Of a stretch of DNA of 63,790 bases, positions 8,478 through 62,544 are shown piece after piece. Position numbers and translations under genes: made by a program. The first letter of the stretch is position 1; each line of letters starts with the position of its first letter. The notes below the pieces were generated by a model. It saw only the letters and a list, made by a program, of their open reading frames with translations, made no database searches and was not told the DNA's origin. Source of the DNA: Flavobacteriales bacterium (lineage in GTDB: Bacteria; Bacteroidota; Bacteroidia; Flavobacteriales; UBA7312); the NCBI GenBank assembly GCA_016779935.1, contig JADHMQ010000011.1, forward strand, positions 1 through 63,790, read 5' to 3'.

Positions 8478-11400
8478 ATGGCAGTAAGAAAAGGTAATAA
8501 AGAAGTTAACATAAGTTTTAATAACATTACAATTAGTCTTGCATCACCTGAGGACATGCTTTCAAAGTCAAGCGGTGAGGTTACAAAACCAGAGACTATT
8601 AACTATAGAACTTATAAACCAGAAAGAGATGGTTTGTTTTGTGAAAGAATTTTCGGACCTACAAAAGACTTCGAATGTCATTGTGGTAAGTATAAAAGAA
8701 TCCGATACAGAGGAATCGTTTGTGACCGTTGTGGTGTTGAAGTAACTGAGAAAAAAGTTAGAAGAGAAAGAACCGGACACATTCAATTGGTAGTTCCTGT
8801 TGCTCATATTTGGTATTCTAAATCTAATCCAAACAAAATCGGTTATCTACTTGGATTACCAAGTAAAAAGCTTGACATGATAATCTATTATGAAAGATAT
8901 GTAGTAATTCAAGCAGGTTTAGCCAAAAATGCTGAAGGTGAGCCATTAAATTATATGGATTTCCTTACAGAAGATGAGTACTTGGATGCTCTAGAGCAAT
9001 TACCACCAGAGAATCGTTATTTAGACGATGAAGACCCAAATAAATTTATTGCCAAAATGGGTGCTGAAGCTCTTGTCGAATTACTACGTCGTTTAGACTT
9101 AGATCAATTATCATTTGATTTAAGACATAAAGCCAGCACAGAAACATCTCAACAGAGAAAAGCTGAGGCTTTAAAACGATTACAAGTAATAGAGTCTTTC
9201 AGAGATGCAAACTCCAGAATTGAAAATAAGCCAGAGTGGATGATAGTCAAAGTAATTCCGGTTATTCCACCAGAATTAAGACCATTAGTCCCATTAGATG
9301 GAGGTCGTTTTGCTACTTCTGATTTAAATGACTTGTATAGAAGAGTGATTATCAGAAACAACAGGCTAAAGCGATTAATTGAAATTAAAGCACCTGAAGT
9401 AATTCTTAGAAATGAAAAGAGAATGCTTCAAGAATCTGTAGACTCATTATTTGATAACTCAAGAAAATCAAGTGCTGTTAAAACAGAATCAAACCGTGCA
9501 TTAAAATCATTATCTGATAGTTTAAAAGGAAAACAAGGACGTTTTCGTCAGAACTTATTAGGTAAGCGTGTAGATTATTCTGCTCGTTCGGTAATTGTTG
9601 TTGGACCAGAATTAAAAATGCACGAATGTGGATTGCCAAAGAATATGGCAGCTGAATTATTCAAGCCATTCATCATCCGTAAGATGATTGACAGAGGTAT
9701 TGTTAAGACAGTAAAATCTGCTAAAAAAATTATTGATAAAAGAGAGCCAGTAGTTTGGGATATTTTAGAAAACGTAATGAAAGGACATCCAGTTCTTTTA
9801 AATCGTGCCCCAACTCTGCACAGATTAGGTATACAAGCTTTCCAACCAGTAATGATTGAAGGTAAGGCAATTCGTCTTCACCCTCTAGTTTGTACAGCAT
9901 TTAACGCCGATTTTGATGGTGACCAAATGGCGGTACACTTACCTTTAGGTGAGGCTGCAGTTTTAGAAGCTCAGTTACTTATGTTAGCATCTCACAATAT
10001 TCTAAACCCTGCGAATGGCGCTCCGGTTACAGTTCCATCTCAGGATATGGTATTGGGATTATATTACATGACTAAGTCCTTAAAAGGAGCTAAAGGTGAA
10101 GGATTATCTTTCTATTCTGAAGAAGAAGTTAAGATTGCTTTCAACGAATCTATTGTTGATTTGCACTCAATTATTAAGGTGAGAACTTCAATCAAAGAAG
10201 GCGAAGAATTCACTACTAAACTTTTAGAAACTACTGTTGGTAGAGTGTTATTTAACGAACACGTTCCTTCTGAAGTAGGATATATTGACCAATTATTAAC
10301 CAAGAAAGCCTTAAGAGACATCATTGGTGAGGTATTAAGCATTTCAGGAATTGCAAAAACTGCAGAATTCCTAGATGCTATTAAGGGTATTGGTTATCAC
10401 TTTGCATTTAAAGGCGGATTATCGTTTAACTTAGGTGATGTTATTATTCCTGATGAAAAGGACACTATGATAACAGATGCTTACAATCAAGTTGACGAAG
10501 TTACTTCTAACTATAACATGGGATTCATTACCAATAATGAAAGATACAACCAGGTTATTGATATTTGGTCGAATACCAATGCACACTTGACAGAAAAAGT
10601 AATGAAGCAATTGAGTTCTGATAAAGATGGATTCAACTCTGTTTACATGATGCTTGATTCTGGTGCAAGGGGTTCTAAAGAACAGATTAAGCAGTTAGGT
10701 GGTATGAGAGGCCTTATGGCCAAACCACAAAAATCTGGTGATAAGAGTGGAGCGGCGATTATTGAAAACCCAATTATTGCAAACTTCAAAGAAGGTCTTT
10801 CAATCCTTGAGTACTTTATTTCTACTCACGGTGCTCGTAAAGGTCTTGCCGATACTGCTCTTAAAACAGCAGATGCCGGTTACTTAACTCGTCGTTTAGT
10901 TGATGCTTCTCAAGATGTTGTCGTAAAAATTGAAGATTGCGGTACATTAAGAGGTTTAGAGATTTCAGCTTACAAGAAAAACGATGAAATTGTAGAATCT
11001 TTAAAAGATAGAATTGTTGGGCGTGTTTCACTACACAATGTTTATGATCAGAATGGGAACATTATTGTTACTTCTGATGAAATGATTGTTGAAAAAACAG
11101 CTCAAGCAATTGAAAATGCTCACGTTGAATCCGTTGAAGTACGTTCAGTACTTACATGTGAAGCTAAGAAAGGTGTATGTGCCAAGTGTTATGGAAGAAA
11201 TCTTTCTACTGGTAATATGGCTGTTTCTGGTGATACTGTAGGTGTTGTAGCTGCACAATCAATTGGTGAGCCTGGTACACAGCTAACACTTAGAACATTC
11301 CACTTTGGTGGTACAGCTTCTAAAATAGCATCAGAATCTAGTATTGTTACTAAGTACGATGGTAAGTTAGAAATTGATGACTTAAAAACTATTGAAACCG

Positions 11401-52948: not shown

Positions 52949-53461
52949 ATGAAAGCAGTAGTAAGTATCATTATGGGGAGTACATCTGATATGCCAGTTA
53001 TGCGAAAAGCAGCAGACTTCCTTAATTCAATGAAAATCCCATTTGAAATAAACGCTTTGTCGGCACACCGTGTTCCCGAAAAAGTAGAAGAATTTGCCTC
53101 AAATGCACATGCCAATGGCATTAAGGTAATTATTGCTGGCGCTGGTGGTGCTGCTCACTTGCCAGGTGTTGTTGCTGCTTTTGCTACAGTTCCAGTAATT
53201 GGTGTTCCCTGCCGTTCATCTATTTCTATTGACGGATGGGATAGCATCCTCTCAATCCTTCAAATGCCTCCTGGAATTCCAGTTGCAACAGTTGGACTAG
53301 ATGCAGCTTACAATGCTGGGATTTTAGCAGGACAAATCTTATCTACTTCAGATGAAGAGCTTCATGCTAGAATGGTAGAGTTCAAAATGAACATGAAACA
53401 AAAAATTGTAAAAGCTAACCAAGATTTAGCAAGCGAAAAGTTTGAATTTAGAGTTCAGTAG
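52949..53461 (+). CDS. purE: N5-carboxyaminoimidazole ribonucleotide mutase
   Basis: A 170-residue class I PurE. The substrate-binding motif 'SIIMGSTSDMPVMRKAADFL' is at the N terminus; the active-site 'NALSAHRVPEKV' is near residue 38; 'IAGAGGAAHLPGVVAAFATVPVIGVP' in two segments and 'SILQMPPGIPVATVGLDAA' follow. It rearranges N5-CAIR to CAIR in purine synthesis. PurK is not adjacent. A strong terminator follows, so it is expressed alone. Confidence 0.97.
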   Translation: MKAVVSIIMGSTSDMPVMRKAADFLNSMKIPFEINALSAHRVPEKVEEFASNAHANGIKVIIAGAGGAAHLPGVVAAFATVPVIGVPCRSSISIDGWDSILSILQMPPGIPVATVGLDAAYNAGILAGQILSTSDEELHARMVEFKMNMKQKIVKANQDLASEKFEFRVQ

Positions 53462-53738: not shown

Positions 53739-54080
53739 GTGCTGCTTAATCTTGATGAAAAATTTGAAGTCATAAGAATTGACAATGATATACATTTTGT
53801 CGATCTAAGTGGTAATAATAAGGTTGAATTAGTGGATAATGATGGTAGTCTTTCACACAAAATTGAGTCAAACAAAAAAAGAGAAAAAATAGTGTTTAAA
53901 TGCAATGGTTCTTGTTGTTTTTTCTCTCAAATAACCGATACTCATTTAGCTGTGTTTGCCCAGATGCTAGAGACGTTACAATATCTACAGGTGAAAATTG
54001 AAATGTTACAATTAAAAGAGGAGGGCGATAGTACCAAAGAGAGCAGTCTTGTTAATGATAATAGAGTTCATAATCTCTGA
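53739..54080 (+). CDS. Hypothetical acidic protein, start uncertain
   Basis: The frame has a GTG start at 53739 giving 113 residues, but it stays open back to 53634 with sensible sequence ('VIESHEFFNDNYSAFSLQLA', then 'RRDTVESILV') and no start codon. An ATG at 53638 lies in another frame, so a one-base frameshift near 53640-53645 may have removed the natural start. No family is recognised. It contains a 'CNGSCCFFSQ' cysteine cluster and a helical C-terminal half. It sits alone between purE and an outer-membrane gene pair. Confidence 0.5.
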   Translation: MLLNLDEKFEVIRIDNDIHFVDLSGNNKVELVDNDGSLSHKIESNKKREKIVFKCNGSCCFFSQITDTHLAVFAQMLETLQYLQVKIEMLQLKEEGDSTKESSLVNDNRVHNL

Positions 54081-54115: not shown

Positions 54116-54874
54116 ATGAAAGCCATCTTGCTTTGCCTGTATTTTACAGTATTTAGTTGCGTATTATATGCACAATCCACTCTTATAGAAGGTCAATCTG
54201 TAATAGGAAAAGGATTGTGGTCTCATAATTGTGCTGGTATAAGTCACTCTTCAAATTACGCTCTTGGTGTTTCCAACACCTATGCTTTTGGATTAAGTGA
54301 ATTGTCAACTTCAAAATTAGCAGTGGTCGGCCCTTTAAATTTTGGAGTAATTGGGGCTAGCTGGATAAATTCAGGAGATTATATATACAATGAAAATGAA
54401 ATAGCACTTTCATTTGCCCGATACTTTTCATCAGCCTTTCAGCTTGGAATGAGAATGAGAGTTAATTCAATTTCTATACATTCTGAAAATCGATCTTCTT
54501 TCATTGCTGATATTGGTATGCAGTCGTCAATCAGTGAGAAAATTTCATTTGGAGTGCAGTTAAAAAACCCTTTGAGAGCAGAATTGCAAACTACTTCTTT
54601 AGATATAGGCTTTGCCTATTGGCTTTCAAAAAAAGCAGCATTATTTCTTTCGGCTCGAAAAGAATCAGATTTGCCTACTTCAGTGATACTGCATGTCAAT
54701 TATACAATTTTAGAAAAAGTATCTATTCAAGGAGCTGTATCAAACACTGCTTTTTTTAATCGTTTCGGACTAGCTTATAAATTGAAAAACATATCCTTAG
54801 AAGCTTTTCTATCTCATCATTCTTATTTGGGTTTTAGTCCTCAAGTTGGAATTTCATATTCTTTTAGAAAATGA
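54116..54874 (+). CDS. Predicted outer-membrane beta-barrel protein
   Basis: A 252-residue protein with a Sec signal peptide (MKAILLCLYFTVFSCVLYAQ) and alternating hydrophobic/polar beta strands to the end ('QVGISYSFRK', terminal aromatic-rich strand). The pattern 'GVIGASWINSGDYIYNENEIALSFARY' (read in two segments) resembles the PorV/PorQ-like outer-membrane family. No function can be assigned. The next gene, a barrel with HhH motifs, overlaps it by four bases (ATGA at 54871-54874), so the two are made together. Confidence 0.65.
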   Translation: MKAILLCLYFTVFSCVLYAQSTLIEGQSVIGKGLWSHNCAGISHSSNYALGVSNTYAFGLSELSTSKLAVVGPLNFGVIGASWINSGDYIYNENEIALSFARYFSSAFQLGMRMRVNSISIHSENRSSFIADIGMQSSISEKISFGVQLKNPLRAELQTTSLDIGFAYWLSKKAALFLSARKESDLPTSVILHVNYTILEKVSIQGAVSNTAFFNRFGLAYKLKNISLEAFLSHHSYLGFSPQVGISYSFRK

Positions 54875-56751
54875 AAAAAATCCTTTTAATGATTCTCATT
54901 TGTAACTGTGTTTACGCTCAAGAATTACCAGAGGCATTGGCTTTTTATTTGGAAAATGAAAATGTAGACGAAAGTGAACTTTCTTTTCTATACGAGGTTT
55001 TGGAATCTCCCATTAATCAAAATGATTGTTCTATTGACGATTTATTGCAACTGCCATTTGTAACTAAAGAAGAAGCAATCTCAATTATAAAATATAGAGA
55101 GTCCAAAACATTGTTTCGTTCAGTGTATGAATTGCAAGCGATTAATGACTTAAAAAGAAATACAATTAGTTTATTGTTTGAATGTGTAAGTGTCGAGCCA
55201 AAATCAGCTGAGGTAAAAAAATTACGCCATCAATTAATTGCTCTTTACCAAAGTTTTTTGGAGGATCAGATAGAATTTTCTGACGGAACCTTTATTGGAA
55301 ATAAAAGCAAATATAACTTAAGGTATAAGGGTAGTTATAAAAATGTGAATTTTGGCTTTGTTAACGAAAAAGATGCTGGTGAAAAACACTTTGATTTTAA
55401 CTCTTTCCATTTAAATGTTAAAAAAAGAAATACACATCTTTTTATTGGAGATTATCAACTTTCATTGGGGCAAGGATTGTTAAATTATCAGGGGTTTAGC
55501 TTTGGAAAGTCAGCAAATGTATTGAATACATTTAAAAGAAGTCCTACCTTTCGTTCACATACTTCAACTCGAGAAAGTCACTTTTACAGAGGGTTAGCAA
55601 TTGAACAAAAATATAAGAGATGGAAATGGTCTTCCTGGCTTTCTTACAAAGAAATTGATGCTAATTATGATGAAACATCACAGTTGATAACGTCTTTAAG
55701 TGATGTAGGCTTGCACAGAACACTAACTGAGATAGAAAATAAACATCAACTTCTTCAAAAAACATTTGGAAGTCGGCTATCCTTTCAAAAAAGCCGCTTC
55801 AATTCTTCAGTTTATTTTAATTATCAAGATTGGGATAAACCTATAAAAGTTCTCAAAGATACTCTTGAAAATTCACTTTCTGTTGCAGCGGATTATTCCA
55901 TTACAATTAAAAATATGTACTTGTTTGGCGAAATGAGCCTAGCACAACATTCGTTTTCATGTTTGTCTGGAATGACAATAAATCTATCACGAAATTTATC
56001 ATATGCTTTGCTATATAGAAATTATCCCTCAGATTACTACTCTTGGGAATCGAACGCCTTTTCTGAGCAATCCACTATTAGAAATGAAAGAGGATTATAT
56101 TCGGCAATAAATCTTGATTTATCAAAAAAATGGAACTTATCATCTTATTCAGATTATTATTATTTTCCTGAAAAGAGTTATTATACGGATGTTCCTTTAA
56201 GAGGTAAAGACCACAACATTCAACTAAAGTATAAAGCATCAAAAAAGCATCAAGCTTTGGCACGAATAAATTGGGAGTCAAAAACTACAAATCAAAATGA
56301 TGAAATAGGGCTTGATGTTATTGAAGAATCGTCTTCCATGAAGATTCTTGCACAACTAAATTTTAAACTCAATGATTTTTCATTTAAAAGTCGTTCATCA
56401 TGGAGTATGTCAGAAAACGATTGGGGGTATTTGATTTTCTATGATGTAAAATATAAACCCTTAGAAAGTAATTGGTCATGTTCAATGAGGTATCTTTTAT
56501 TTGATACTCCAAATTATTCGACAAGAATTTACGTCTATGAACCCGATGTGTTATACTCCTTTTCTGTTCCAGCGTTTTATGGTGAAGGACAAAGAATTAT
56601 TGGGCTTCTAAAGTATAAACTTAACAAACAGTTAACCCTTAACTTTAAGGTTGCACAAACGCTTTATTACGATAATACGTCCATTCGTTCAAGAAGTATC
56701 GAAGGCGATAGATTGACTGATTTTAAGATATTAGTTAAATATGTAATGTAA
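54871..56751 (+). CDS. Outer-membrane barrel protein with ComEA-like HhH domain
   Basis: A 626-residue protein: signal peptide (residues 1-16), then two helix-hairpin-helix-like motifs in the next about 90 residues ('SIDDLLQLPFVTKEEAISII' at 54-73 and 'RSVYELQAINDLKRNTISLL' at about 83-102), then a long beta-rich region to the C terminus ('RLTDFKILVKYVM') with features of a large outer-membrane barrel. The HhH pair matches the DNA-binding ComEA family; the barrel part is unusual for it. It may bind or move DNA at the outer membrane; that is inference. It overlaps the preceding barrel gene. Confidence 0.7.
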   Translation: MKKILLMILICNCVYAQELPEALAFYLENENVDESELSFLYEVLESPINQNDCSIDDLLQLPFVTKEEAISIIKYRESKTLFRSVYELQAINDLKRNTISLLFECVSVEPKSAEVKKLRHQLIALYQSFLEDQIEFSDGTFIGNKSKYNLRYKGSYKNVNFGFVNEKDAGEKHFDFNSFHLNVKKRNTHLFIGDYQLSLGQGLLNYQGFSFGKSANVLNTFKRSPTFRSHTSTRESHFYRGLAIEQKYKRWKWSSWLSYKEIDANYDETSQLITSLSDVGLHRTLTEIENKHQLLQKTFGSRLSFQKSRFNSSVYFNYQDWDKPIKVLKDTLENSLSVAADYSITIKNMYLFGEMSLAQHSFSCLSGMTINLSRNLSYALLYRNYPSDYYSWESNAFSEQSTIRNERGLYSAINLDLSKKWNLSSYSDYYYFPEKSYYTDVPLRGKDHNIQLKYKASKKHQALARINWESKTTNQNDEIGLDVIEESSSMKILAQLNFKLNDFSFKSRSSWSMSENDWGYLIFYDVKYKPLESNWSCSMRYLLFDTPNYSTRIYVYEPDVLYSFSVPAFYGEGQRIIGLLKYKLNKQLTLNFKVAQTLYYDNTSIRSRSIEGDRLTDFKILVKYVM

Positions 56752-60810: not shown

Positions 60811-62544
60811 ATGAAAACAATATTTAACGACTTTGGAAACCCGCAGGTGGCTAAACTTCCCGACCATCTTAGACAATTTGTTGTTGATCAAGATTACAGT
60901 AGTTATACTGCATTAGACCATGCCCTTTGGAGGTATGTCATGAGAAAGAATATTTCTTACCTAAAAAATGTAGCTGACAGTTCTTATTTAGATGGCTTGG
61001 AAAAAACAGGTATTACCATAGATGCAATTCCTAATATCAAGGATATGAATGATATACTTGGTAAAATAGGTTGGGGTTGTGTTTGTGTCGATGGCTTTTT
61101 GCCACCATCATCATTTATGGAATTTCAAGCCTATAAAGTATTAGTGATAGCAGCAGATATTCGCCAAATTGAACATATAGAATATACGCCAGCACCAGAT
61201 ATAATTCATGAAGCAGCTGGTCATGCGCCAATTATTGCAGACCCCATGTATGCCGAGTATCTTAGGCTGTTTGGAGAAATAGGTAGTAAGGCTATTTCAT
61301 CATCAAAGGATTTTGAATTATATGAAGCCATTCGCCATTTATCAATAATCAAAGAAGACCCGAATACAAAAGCAGATGAAATAGAAAAGGCAGAAGTGGA
61401 GATTTCCCGTATTCAACAAAATATGGGTGAGCCTTCAGAGATGGCTAGAATTAGAAATTTACACTGGTGGACGGTTGAATATGGTCTTATTGGTGATCTT
61501 TCAAACCCTAAAATTTATGGAGCTGGACTTTTATCCTCAATAGGAGAGAGTGAAAGTTGTCTAAAAGATGAGGTCAAGAAAATACCATATTCATTAGATG
61601 CGGCTAATCTAGCTTTCGATATCACTGAGCCACAACCACAGCTCTTTGTTACGCCATCTTACACCTACCTTACTCAGGTGCTAGAAGAGTTTGCCAATGG
61701 AATGGCACTTCGAACAGGAGGAATTGATGGGTTAAGCAAAGCAATAGAATCCCAAAACATCTGTACCTCAGAGTATAGTTCTGGTATTCAAGTTTCAGGA
61801 ACCTTCAATAAATTAATTGAGAAAGACGGTAAAGTTGTTTACCTTTCAACATCATCCCCAACAGCCTTGGCTTGGCAAAATAAAGAACTTGTAGGTCATG
61901 GAAAAGACTATCACAAAGATGGATTTAGTTCTCCAGTTGGTTTACTTAAAGGAGAGTCTACACCATTAGAGTTAATGAGTATAGAACAACTATGTGATTT
62001 AGGAATAGAGTCATCCAAAAGAGTTGATATAGAATTTGCAAGTGGCGTTAAGGTGTCAGGAAAACTCATTAATATAGTTAAGAATATAAAAGGAGAAAAC
62101 ATACTCATGTCATTTAAAGAATGTACAGTCACATATAACGAGGAAGCTTTGTTTTTGCCAGAATGGGGAATGTATGATATGGCTATAGGTCAGAAGATTA
62201 CTTCTGTTTTCTCAGGAGCTGCAGACAGAGCTATTTTCTCTAAAGATAATCCGTTCGTTCCTAGCGAAAAGACGCATAAGATTAATTATTCTGCTCAACG
62301 AAAAGAGTTGCATAAACTATATCAAAAAGTTAGAGATGTTAGAAATGGAGACCTACCCAATGAAAGTACATATTCCATATGGTCTGAGCTAATTAACTAT
62401 AAAGAAGACTGGTTGTGTGCCATTGAATTATTAGAAATATGTGAGGATGATATACTATCTTCAGAAATTATTGATTATTTGAAAAAGAAAAATGAGAAGT
62501 CAATTAAACATTTAGTTGAAGAAGGATTAAATTTTGTAGTATGA
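60811..62544 (+). CDS. Aromatic amino acid hydroxylase (phenylalanine 4-monooxygenase-like)
   Basis: A 577-residue protein. The first half has the non-heme iron site: His133 and His138 in 'DIIHEAAGHAPIIADPMYAE' and Glu223 in 'HWWTVEYGLIGD', and 'GWGCVCVDGFLPPSSFMEFQ' before them. It would hydroxylate Phe (or Trp/Tyr) using O2 and a tetrahydropterin. The second half (about residues 300-577) is a Bacteroidota-specific C-terminal extension that I cannot assign. The next gene, an SDR, overlaps the stop by four bases (ATGA). No pterin-4a-carbinolamine dehydratase is nearby. Confidence 0.92.
   Translation: MKTIFNDFGNPQVAKLPDHLRQFVVDQDYSSYTALDHALWRYVMRKNISYLKNVADSSYLDGLEKTGITIDAIPNIKDMNDILGKIGWGCVCVDGFLPPSSFMEFQAYKVLVIAADIRQIEHIEYTPAPDIIHEAAGHAPIIADPMYAEYLRLFGEIGSKAISSSKDFELYEAIRHLSIIKEDPNTKADEIEKAEVEISRIQQNMGEPSEMARIRNLHWWTVEYGLIGDLSNPKIYGAGLLSSIGESESCLKDEVKKIPYSLDAANLAFDITEPQPQLFVTPSYTYLTQVLEEFANGMALRTGGIDGLSKAIESQNICTSEYSSGIQVSGTFNKLIEKDGKVVYLSTSSPTALAWQNKELVGHGKDYHKDGFSSPVGLLKGESTPLELMSIEQLCDLGIESSKRVDIEFASGVKVSGKLINIVKNIKGENILMSFKECTVTYNEEALFLPEWGMYDMAIGQKITSVFSGAADRAIFSKDNPFVPSEKTHKINYSAQRKELHKLYQKVRDVRNGDLPNESTYSIWSELINYKEDWLCAIELLEICEDDILSSEIIDYLKKKNEKSIKHLVEEGLNFVV

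Follow-up and report, generated by a model that had tools for sequence, protein, structure and literature searches.

Hairpins of the DNA-binding helix-hairpin-helix (HhH) type turn the main-chain amides of a GhG motif towards the DNA backbone (PMC3905867). Within the Bacteroidota, the HhH protein RA0C_RS02645 is essential for transformation of Riemerella anatipestifer, and the function of the candidate outer-membrane genes for transformation in this organism is unknown (PMC8459023). The subunits that have been named for the Bacteroidota BAM machinery are BamA, BamD, BamG-K, BamM and BamP (PMC12611786, PMC12578637). Here we describe a pair of outer-membrane barrel genes, the larger of which carries an HhH domain related to that of ComEA.

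The window, by which we mean the whole stretch of DNA analysed, comprises 63,790 nt from a Flavobacteriales bacterium (UBA7312; assembly GCA_016779935.1, contig JADHMQ010000011.1, + strand, positions 1-63,790). The source genome is 1.68 Mb in size and 99.1% complete, and the large barrel gene is present in a single copy. An initial annotation, made from the letters of the sequence, had described two genes overlapping by four bases, the first encoding a smaller barrel-like protein and the second a signal peptide, HhH motifs within the first 100 residues and a large beta-rich barrel. It had further suggested that HhH motifs normally bind DNA, as in ComEA, and that a barrel carrying them could let DNA through the outer membrane or act as a surface DNA receptor, and it had called for structure prediction of each protein alone and for a gene-neighbour survey across the Bacteroidota. 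Both open reading frames were found on the + strand with four bases in common, an arrangement whose ATGA overlap suggests translational coupling of the small and large genes. The features are as follows.

52949-53461 (+): purE, which recurs upstream of the pair (in 27 homologous loci) and belongs to its context, not to the system itself
54116-54874 (+): small outer-membrane protein gene, an ORF of 252 aa; predicted minimal barrel of the FadL/PorV type, with 14 strands and an N-terminal plug
54871-56751 (+): large outer-membrane protein gene, an ORF of 626 aa; signal peptide, HhH domain and predicted 24-strand barrel
54871-54874 (+): ATGA overlap of both genes, 4 bases, read from the sequence
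54871-54918 (+): signal peptide of the large protein, residues 1-16, with cleavage before Q17, read from the sequence
55006-55167 (+): HHH_3 (ComEA-like) domain, residues 46-99, without the GhG glycines (Pfam match)
55225-56745 (+): 24-strand barrel, residues 119-625 (AlphaFold2)
55372-55395 (+): external loop 3, DAGE of the EKDAGE motif, the best-conserved loop (0.84)
55468-55584 (+): external loop 5, GQGL motif, 39 residues
56509-56580 (+): external loop 21, RIYxYExDVLYSFSVPAFY motif, conservation 0.77

Two other reading frames in the window were recorded. Between purE and the pair lies a 113-aa ORF with a GTG start (53739-54080, +), which has only weak, sub-cut-off HTH-like matches and may be an orphan or chance ORF. 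Downstream, a 577-aa protein (60811-62544, +) has a biopterin-dependent aromatic amino acid hydroxylase domain (PF00351) in its first part and exceeds the usual hydroxylases in length.

The structure of the large protein was predicted by AlphaFold2 from a 65-sequence alignment (mean pLDDT 85.3, pTM 0.80). The signal peptide described initially is present, with the cleavage site CVYA|Q and a Q17 that is nearly invariant among the 65 homologues; helices extend up to residue 105, and the expected barrel follows as 24 predicted strands between residues 119 and 625. With the N-terminus taken as periplasmic, the periplasmic turns of the predicted barrel average 2.8 residues (range 2-6) and the external loops 14.8 residues (maximum 39), and the C-terminal residue is Phe in 56/65 homologues. 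In this model the short turns, long loops and terminal Phe are as expected for an outer-membrane barrel. In a surface-exposed porin, loops are usually less conserved than strands. Here, external loops 3, 21 and 15 are conserved at 0.84, 0.77 and 0.70, as against 0.57 for the strands and 0.30-0.63 for the periplasmic turns, which points to loops that fold inward or that meet a conserved partner. Comparison of the predicted structure with the PDB gave, among the low-rmsd rows spanning residues 116-626, mainly the 24-strand ushers FimD and PapC, the best of them at Z 14-15 and rmsd 3.7-4.4 over about 360 residues. AlgE and OprD-type porins scored above the ushers, mostly over part of the barrel, and the top Foldseek match (6r2q_B, Mtr complex; TM 0.45, rmsd 16.6) reflects general barrel likeness only. 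Pfam models for ushers, TonB plugs or receptors and porins found no match in the window protein or the 65 homologues, and membership of the usher, TonB-receptor and porin families was therefore rejected.

The HhH motifs proved to be a genuine HHH_3 domain (PF12836, residues 46-99), which scores 32.7 bits (cut-off 27; E 8e-8), is the sole Pfam match of the large protein and was also matched in 44/65 of its homologues. The NCBIfam comE model TIGR01259 gave 18 bits, far below its cut-off of 152.35. Since profile searches of the PDB retrieved the ComEA crystal structures 8dss and 8dfk among the best matches (E about 2e-5), and profile searches also matched the protein EEPD1, the HHH_3 domain can safely be taken as a homologue of the DNA-binding domain of ComEA. 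The proposed manner of DNA binding is weakened by the residues themselves. Neither GhG position of hairpin 1 has a Gly in any of the homologues (0/65 and 0/65), these positions being mostly Leu/Phe/Ile and then Asn/Ser/Thr. In hairpin 2, Gly stands at the first GhG position in 50/65, with Phe next; the window protein has Asp at that position, and thus lacks the GhG glycines in hairpin 2 as well as in hairpin 1. The net charge of the HhH segment is negative rather than positive (window protein -2, homologues -2.6 on average), but charge alone is not decisive on DNA binding, as the ComEA domain of 8dss likewise has a net charge of -2. With the glycines of DNA-binding hairpins lost, the unit may instead serve as a plug or for docking. 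A separate ComEA-like protein is encoded in the same genome (L137, contig G000:C8, 3625-4305, -). It is 226 aa long, with a membrane segment at its N-terminus and the HHH_3 domain in duplicate, and one of its hairpins is a canonical LPGIG; by these sequence features it is a better ComEA candidate than the HhH domain of the barrel, and it is possibly the counterpart of Riemerella RA0C_RS02645.

For the small protein, AlphaFold2 likewise predicted a barrel with confidence (pLDDT 90.1), of 14 strands with an N-terminal plug, behind a signal peptide of about residues 1-19, in agreement with the smaller barrel-like protein described initially. Its closest structural matches are FadL (Z 23-27), PorV (Z 25) and BamG (Z 21-23), all at rmsd 2.0-2.5, and it is much shorter than any of the three. 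A Pfam search with the window protein gave no match. The PorV_fam model NF033709 matched all 62 small-protein homologues at E <= 1e-3, with the window protein at 22.9 bits, below the curated cut-off of 90. The BamG model NF053685 matched 2/62 homologues and Toluene_X (PF03349) 4/62 at E <= 1e-3, and neither matched the window protein. To our knowledge, FadL/PorV-type partners have no role in DNA uptake.

The gene-neighbour survey showed the pairing to be phylum-wide. The small barrel gene lies directly upstream of the large one in 65 of the 69 homologous loci having an upstream ORF, and several of these pairs also overlap. A strong small-protein match was found in 32/41 barrel-bearing genomes and in 0/15 barrel-free ones (P 8e-8, kinship ignored), and at least three genomes (G117, G230, G321) have kept both genes though they lie apart. 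The barrel occurs without a strong small-gene match in 5/6 green sulfur bacteria and in G289, G300, G242 and G395. From this pattern of occurrence the small gene seems to depend on the large one, and not vice versa. One locus (L142, G190:C3, about 10070-10871, -) has the small barrel gene broken up over two reading frames, possibly through a frameshift, next to an intact barrel-comEC pair.

Presence of the large barrel was counted by hand from the table of a profile search of 392 Bacteroidota genomes. About 290 carry it (family profile, best E 1e-17 or better) and 101 are without it; with the family present across the phylum, the pair is not a chance feature. The barrel is absent from every sampled member of two families, f3 and f6, of the same order as the window (53 genomes), which are probably Flavobacteriaceae and Weeksellaceae by inferred identity; weak matches of the barrel profile there are most likely other HhH proteins. 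The window's own family includes two genomes of 93-95% completeness without the barrel. A third genome of this family has a broken copy (L003/L020, G003:C32), in which stop codons split the barrel gene into two matches while the ORF at the position of the small gene is open; this represents either ongoing decay or assembly errors. Family f32, identified as green sulfur bacteria by the FMO protein (7/7 tested), carries the barrel in all genomes sampled. This distribution indicates a gene that is old, widespread and dispensable. Competence genes are often dispensable. The T9SS protein SprA was found in 76/80 genomes whether or not the barrel was present, and 3/4 genomes without SprA keep the barrel, including the green sulfur bacterium G081. 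A literature search on the barrel family, largely confined to sources other than subscription journals, found no paper.

In the commonest genomic context, as in the window, purE lies upstream of the pair and hpt, adk and obgE lie beyond; recJ adjoins the pair in about 7 loci, in convergent orientation and not as an operon partner. Adjacency to comEC was observed in one family only, f17, which was taken as Sphingobacteriaceae from two named loci and the common gene order. The small barrel, the large barrel and comEC follow one another on one strand in Pedobacter psychrophilus (L073) and in a genome of the Sphingobacteriales (L062). Outside genus g63, the large barrel lies directly upstream of comEC in 21/21 loci of this family, from 7 genera, and in 18 of the 21 a possible ComEC start codon lies no more than 13 nt from the barrel stop. 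Coordinates from the phylum-wide and order-wide searches agree for G061, G133, G174, G190, G395 and G427 (one among the 21). None of the 9 loci of genus g63 has the barrel. In seven of them comEC adjoins, where the pair would be expected, a merR-like gene, the same one that borders the pair in G190. G395 is without the small gene and has gyrB upstream, yet its barrel and comEC remain neighbours. Around comEC in the barrel-free families, inspection of three regions by eye (L139-L141) recognised no Riemerella-like transformation cluster.

The barrel and ComEC also tend to be missing together. A ComEC match was absent from 12/392 genomes, 11 of which also lack the barrel (Fisher P 2e-6, kinship ignored). 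Nine of the twelve belong to one family, and counted by lineage (three of four) the association has a P of about 0.06. The exception, G311, which has the barrel and no ComEC match, is a 290-contig assembly from a family whose other sampled members all have both. In family f38, G364 is the sole genome without the barrel and also the sole one without ComEC. SprA, used as a control, showed no comparable link to the barrel. In all sampled members of family f52 (G219, G259, G266, G297, G309, G320, G327, G420, G432), ComEC and the barrel are both missing and HhH matches are weak or absent, an apparent loss of the transformation machinery. Conversely, about 290 of the 380 ComEC-bearing genomes have the barrel and about 90 do not; since so many genomes keep comEC without it, the barrel is not obligatory for ComEC function. 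Riemerella, a member of the Weeksellaceae-type group, is transformable, and the genes essential for this are others (PMC8459023). A search for the secretin domain found none in the window genome or 9 other Bacteroidia, and found it in 7/8 genomes outside Bacteroidia. Bacteroidia therefore need another outer-membrane route for DNA, if they take up DNA at all.

The proposal of a DNA route across the outer membrane is thus partly supported, by the adjacency to comEC in the Sphingobacteriaceae and by the co-absence of ComEC and barrel, while the reason originally given for it, the HhH motifs, is weakened. We regard as most likely, at even odds, that the pair forms a pore through which transforming DNA crosses the outer membrane at a step before ComEC. 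The stronger version, of a dedicated Bacteroidota and green sulfur DNA importer that is unrelated to the type IV pilus secretin and consists of a ComEA-gated 24-strand barrel with a FadL-type side barrel, is put more tentatively, somewhat short of even. The relationship of the HHH_3 domain to ComEA at the level of sequence favours a DNA gate, as do the absence of a secretin from the Bacteroidia searched, external loops better conserved than strands, unlike those of a plain porin, and the presence of the barrel throughout the green sulfur bacteria, a group that includes the naturally transformable Chlorobaculum tepidum (PMC5473272), which makes the link at group level. For such a gate we infer contact between the barrels, passage of DNA, gating or hand-over by the HhH unit and a source of power. 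On its way in, DNA held at the surface would pass the conserved external loops and enter the 24-strand pore. At the periplasmic mouth, the HhH unit could serve as a gate or hand-over point, acting through protein contact or a modified DNA contact, after which the anchored ComEA-like protein and the inner-membrane ComEC would take over the DNA. The small barrel probably docks on the wall of the large one, in the manner of PorV on SprA and BamG on BamA, and, by analogy with PorV on SprA (PMC10994853), may seal or open its side. Such a pore would replace the type IV pilus secretin, which is absent from the window genome.

The main rival reads the same observations as a pore that conveys some other substrate, be it a lipid, a glycan or a protein, through the outer membrane. 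Its HhH domain would then be a structural plug or offer a docking site to a partner in the periplasm, the FadL-type barrel would form a lateral gate, and the comEC operon would be an accident of local gene order. The loss of the GhG glycines counts against a DNA gate, as does the segment's lack of net positive charge, and it suits this alternative. The FadL fold of a partner with no DNA-uptake role known to us points the same way; part of the large barrel also aligns with the polysaccharide export protein AlgE and the capsule protein Wzi, and the whole of it with ushers. It would also account for the roughly 90 ComEC-bearing genomes without the barrel, all sampled f3 and f6 members included, and for gene order in most lineages, where the pair adjoins purE, which is no competence gene; adjacency to comEC is confined to one family, and the co-absence amounts to about four lineage events. 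An accident of gene order fits poorly, however, with an operon retained over 7 genera, with its persistence in G395 despite loss of the small gene and different flanking genes, and with the co-absence itself. We consider a pore for another substrate possible, with the balance of evidence tilted against it.

The fold of the small protein raises the question of an accessory part of the T9SS or BAM, because it falls in the PorV/BamG group by structure (Z 25 and 21-23) and is matched throughout its family by PorV_fam and in two homologues by the BamG model. Yet SprA occurs irrespective of the barrel, most SprA-free genomes keep the barrel, the window protein falls well short of the curated PorV_fam score, and a term search of the Bacteroidota BAM papers (PMC12611786, PMC12578637) returned no helix-hairpin-helix; such a role is unlikely. 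Membership of the T9SS was rejected because the distribution is independent of SprA, and that of BAM because of the model scores. Least probable, and very doubtful indeed, is an ordinary nutrient porin or TonB-dependent receptor with an incidental HhH-like segment: its general likeness to both kinds of barrel is offset by the lack of any TonB plug or porin Pfam match, by 24 predicted strands rather than 22, by key external loops that are conserved phylum-wide rather than variable, and by an HHH_3 match that is significant in 44 of the 65 homologues. By the tests made, this is an uncharacterised family that is not ComEA, usher, TonB-receptor, PorV or BamG.

Since the pair occurs in most of the phylum and forms an operon with comEC in one family, it offers a concrete gene target and a testable candidate for the outer-membrane DNA gate of the Bacteroidota, a phylum in which ComEC is nearly universal. 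Should the substrate be another, the family would still represent a large pore of the outer membrane, so far uncharacterised, that is accompanied by a FadL-type barrel; with SprA-PorV and BamA-BamG it might make three such pairings in the phylum.

Set against these known systems, the large protein resembles ComEA (8dss, 8dfk) in having an HHH_3 domain outside the cytoplasm; ComEA, however, has GIG hairpins and no barrel, whereas the domain here lacks the GhG motif and is fused to a predicted 24-strand barrel. Riemerella RA0C_RS02645 is likewise an HhH protein of this phylum, predicted to be periplasmic and linked to competence by mutation (PMC8459023), but its HhH region lies at residues 236-301, and it resembles the separate ComEA-like protein rather than the large barrel. 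The predicted strand number and the span are similar to those of the chaperone-usher pores FimD and PapC, from which the protein differs in having no usher Pfam match. SprA, the partner of PorV, is much larger, with 36 strands and about 2,400 residues, and the barrel is distributed independently of it. In BamA-BamG a FadL-family barrel is bound to another barrel (PMC12611786, PMC12578637), as would be the case here if the putative contact is made; BamG, in contrast, is larger and reported to be essential, while the present pair is missing from about a quarter of genomes.
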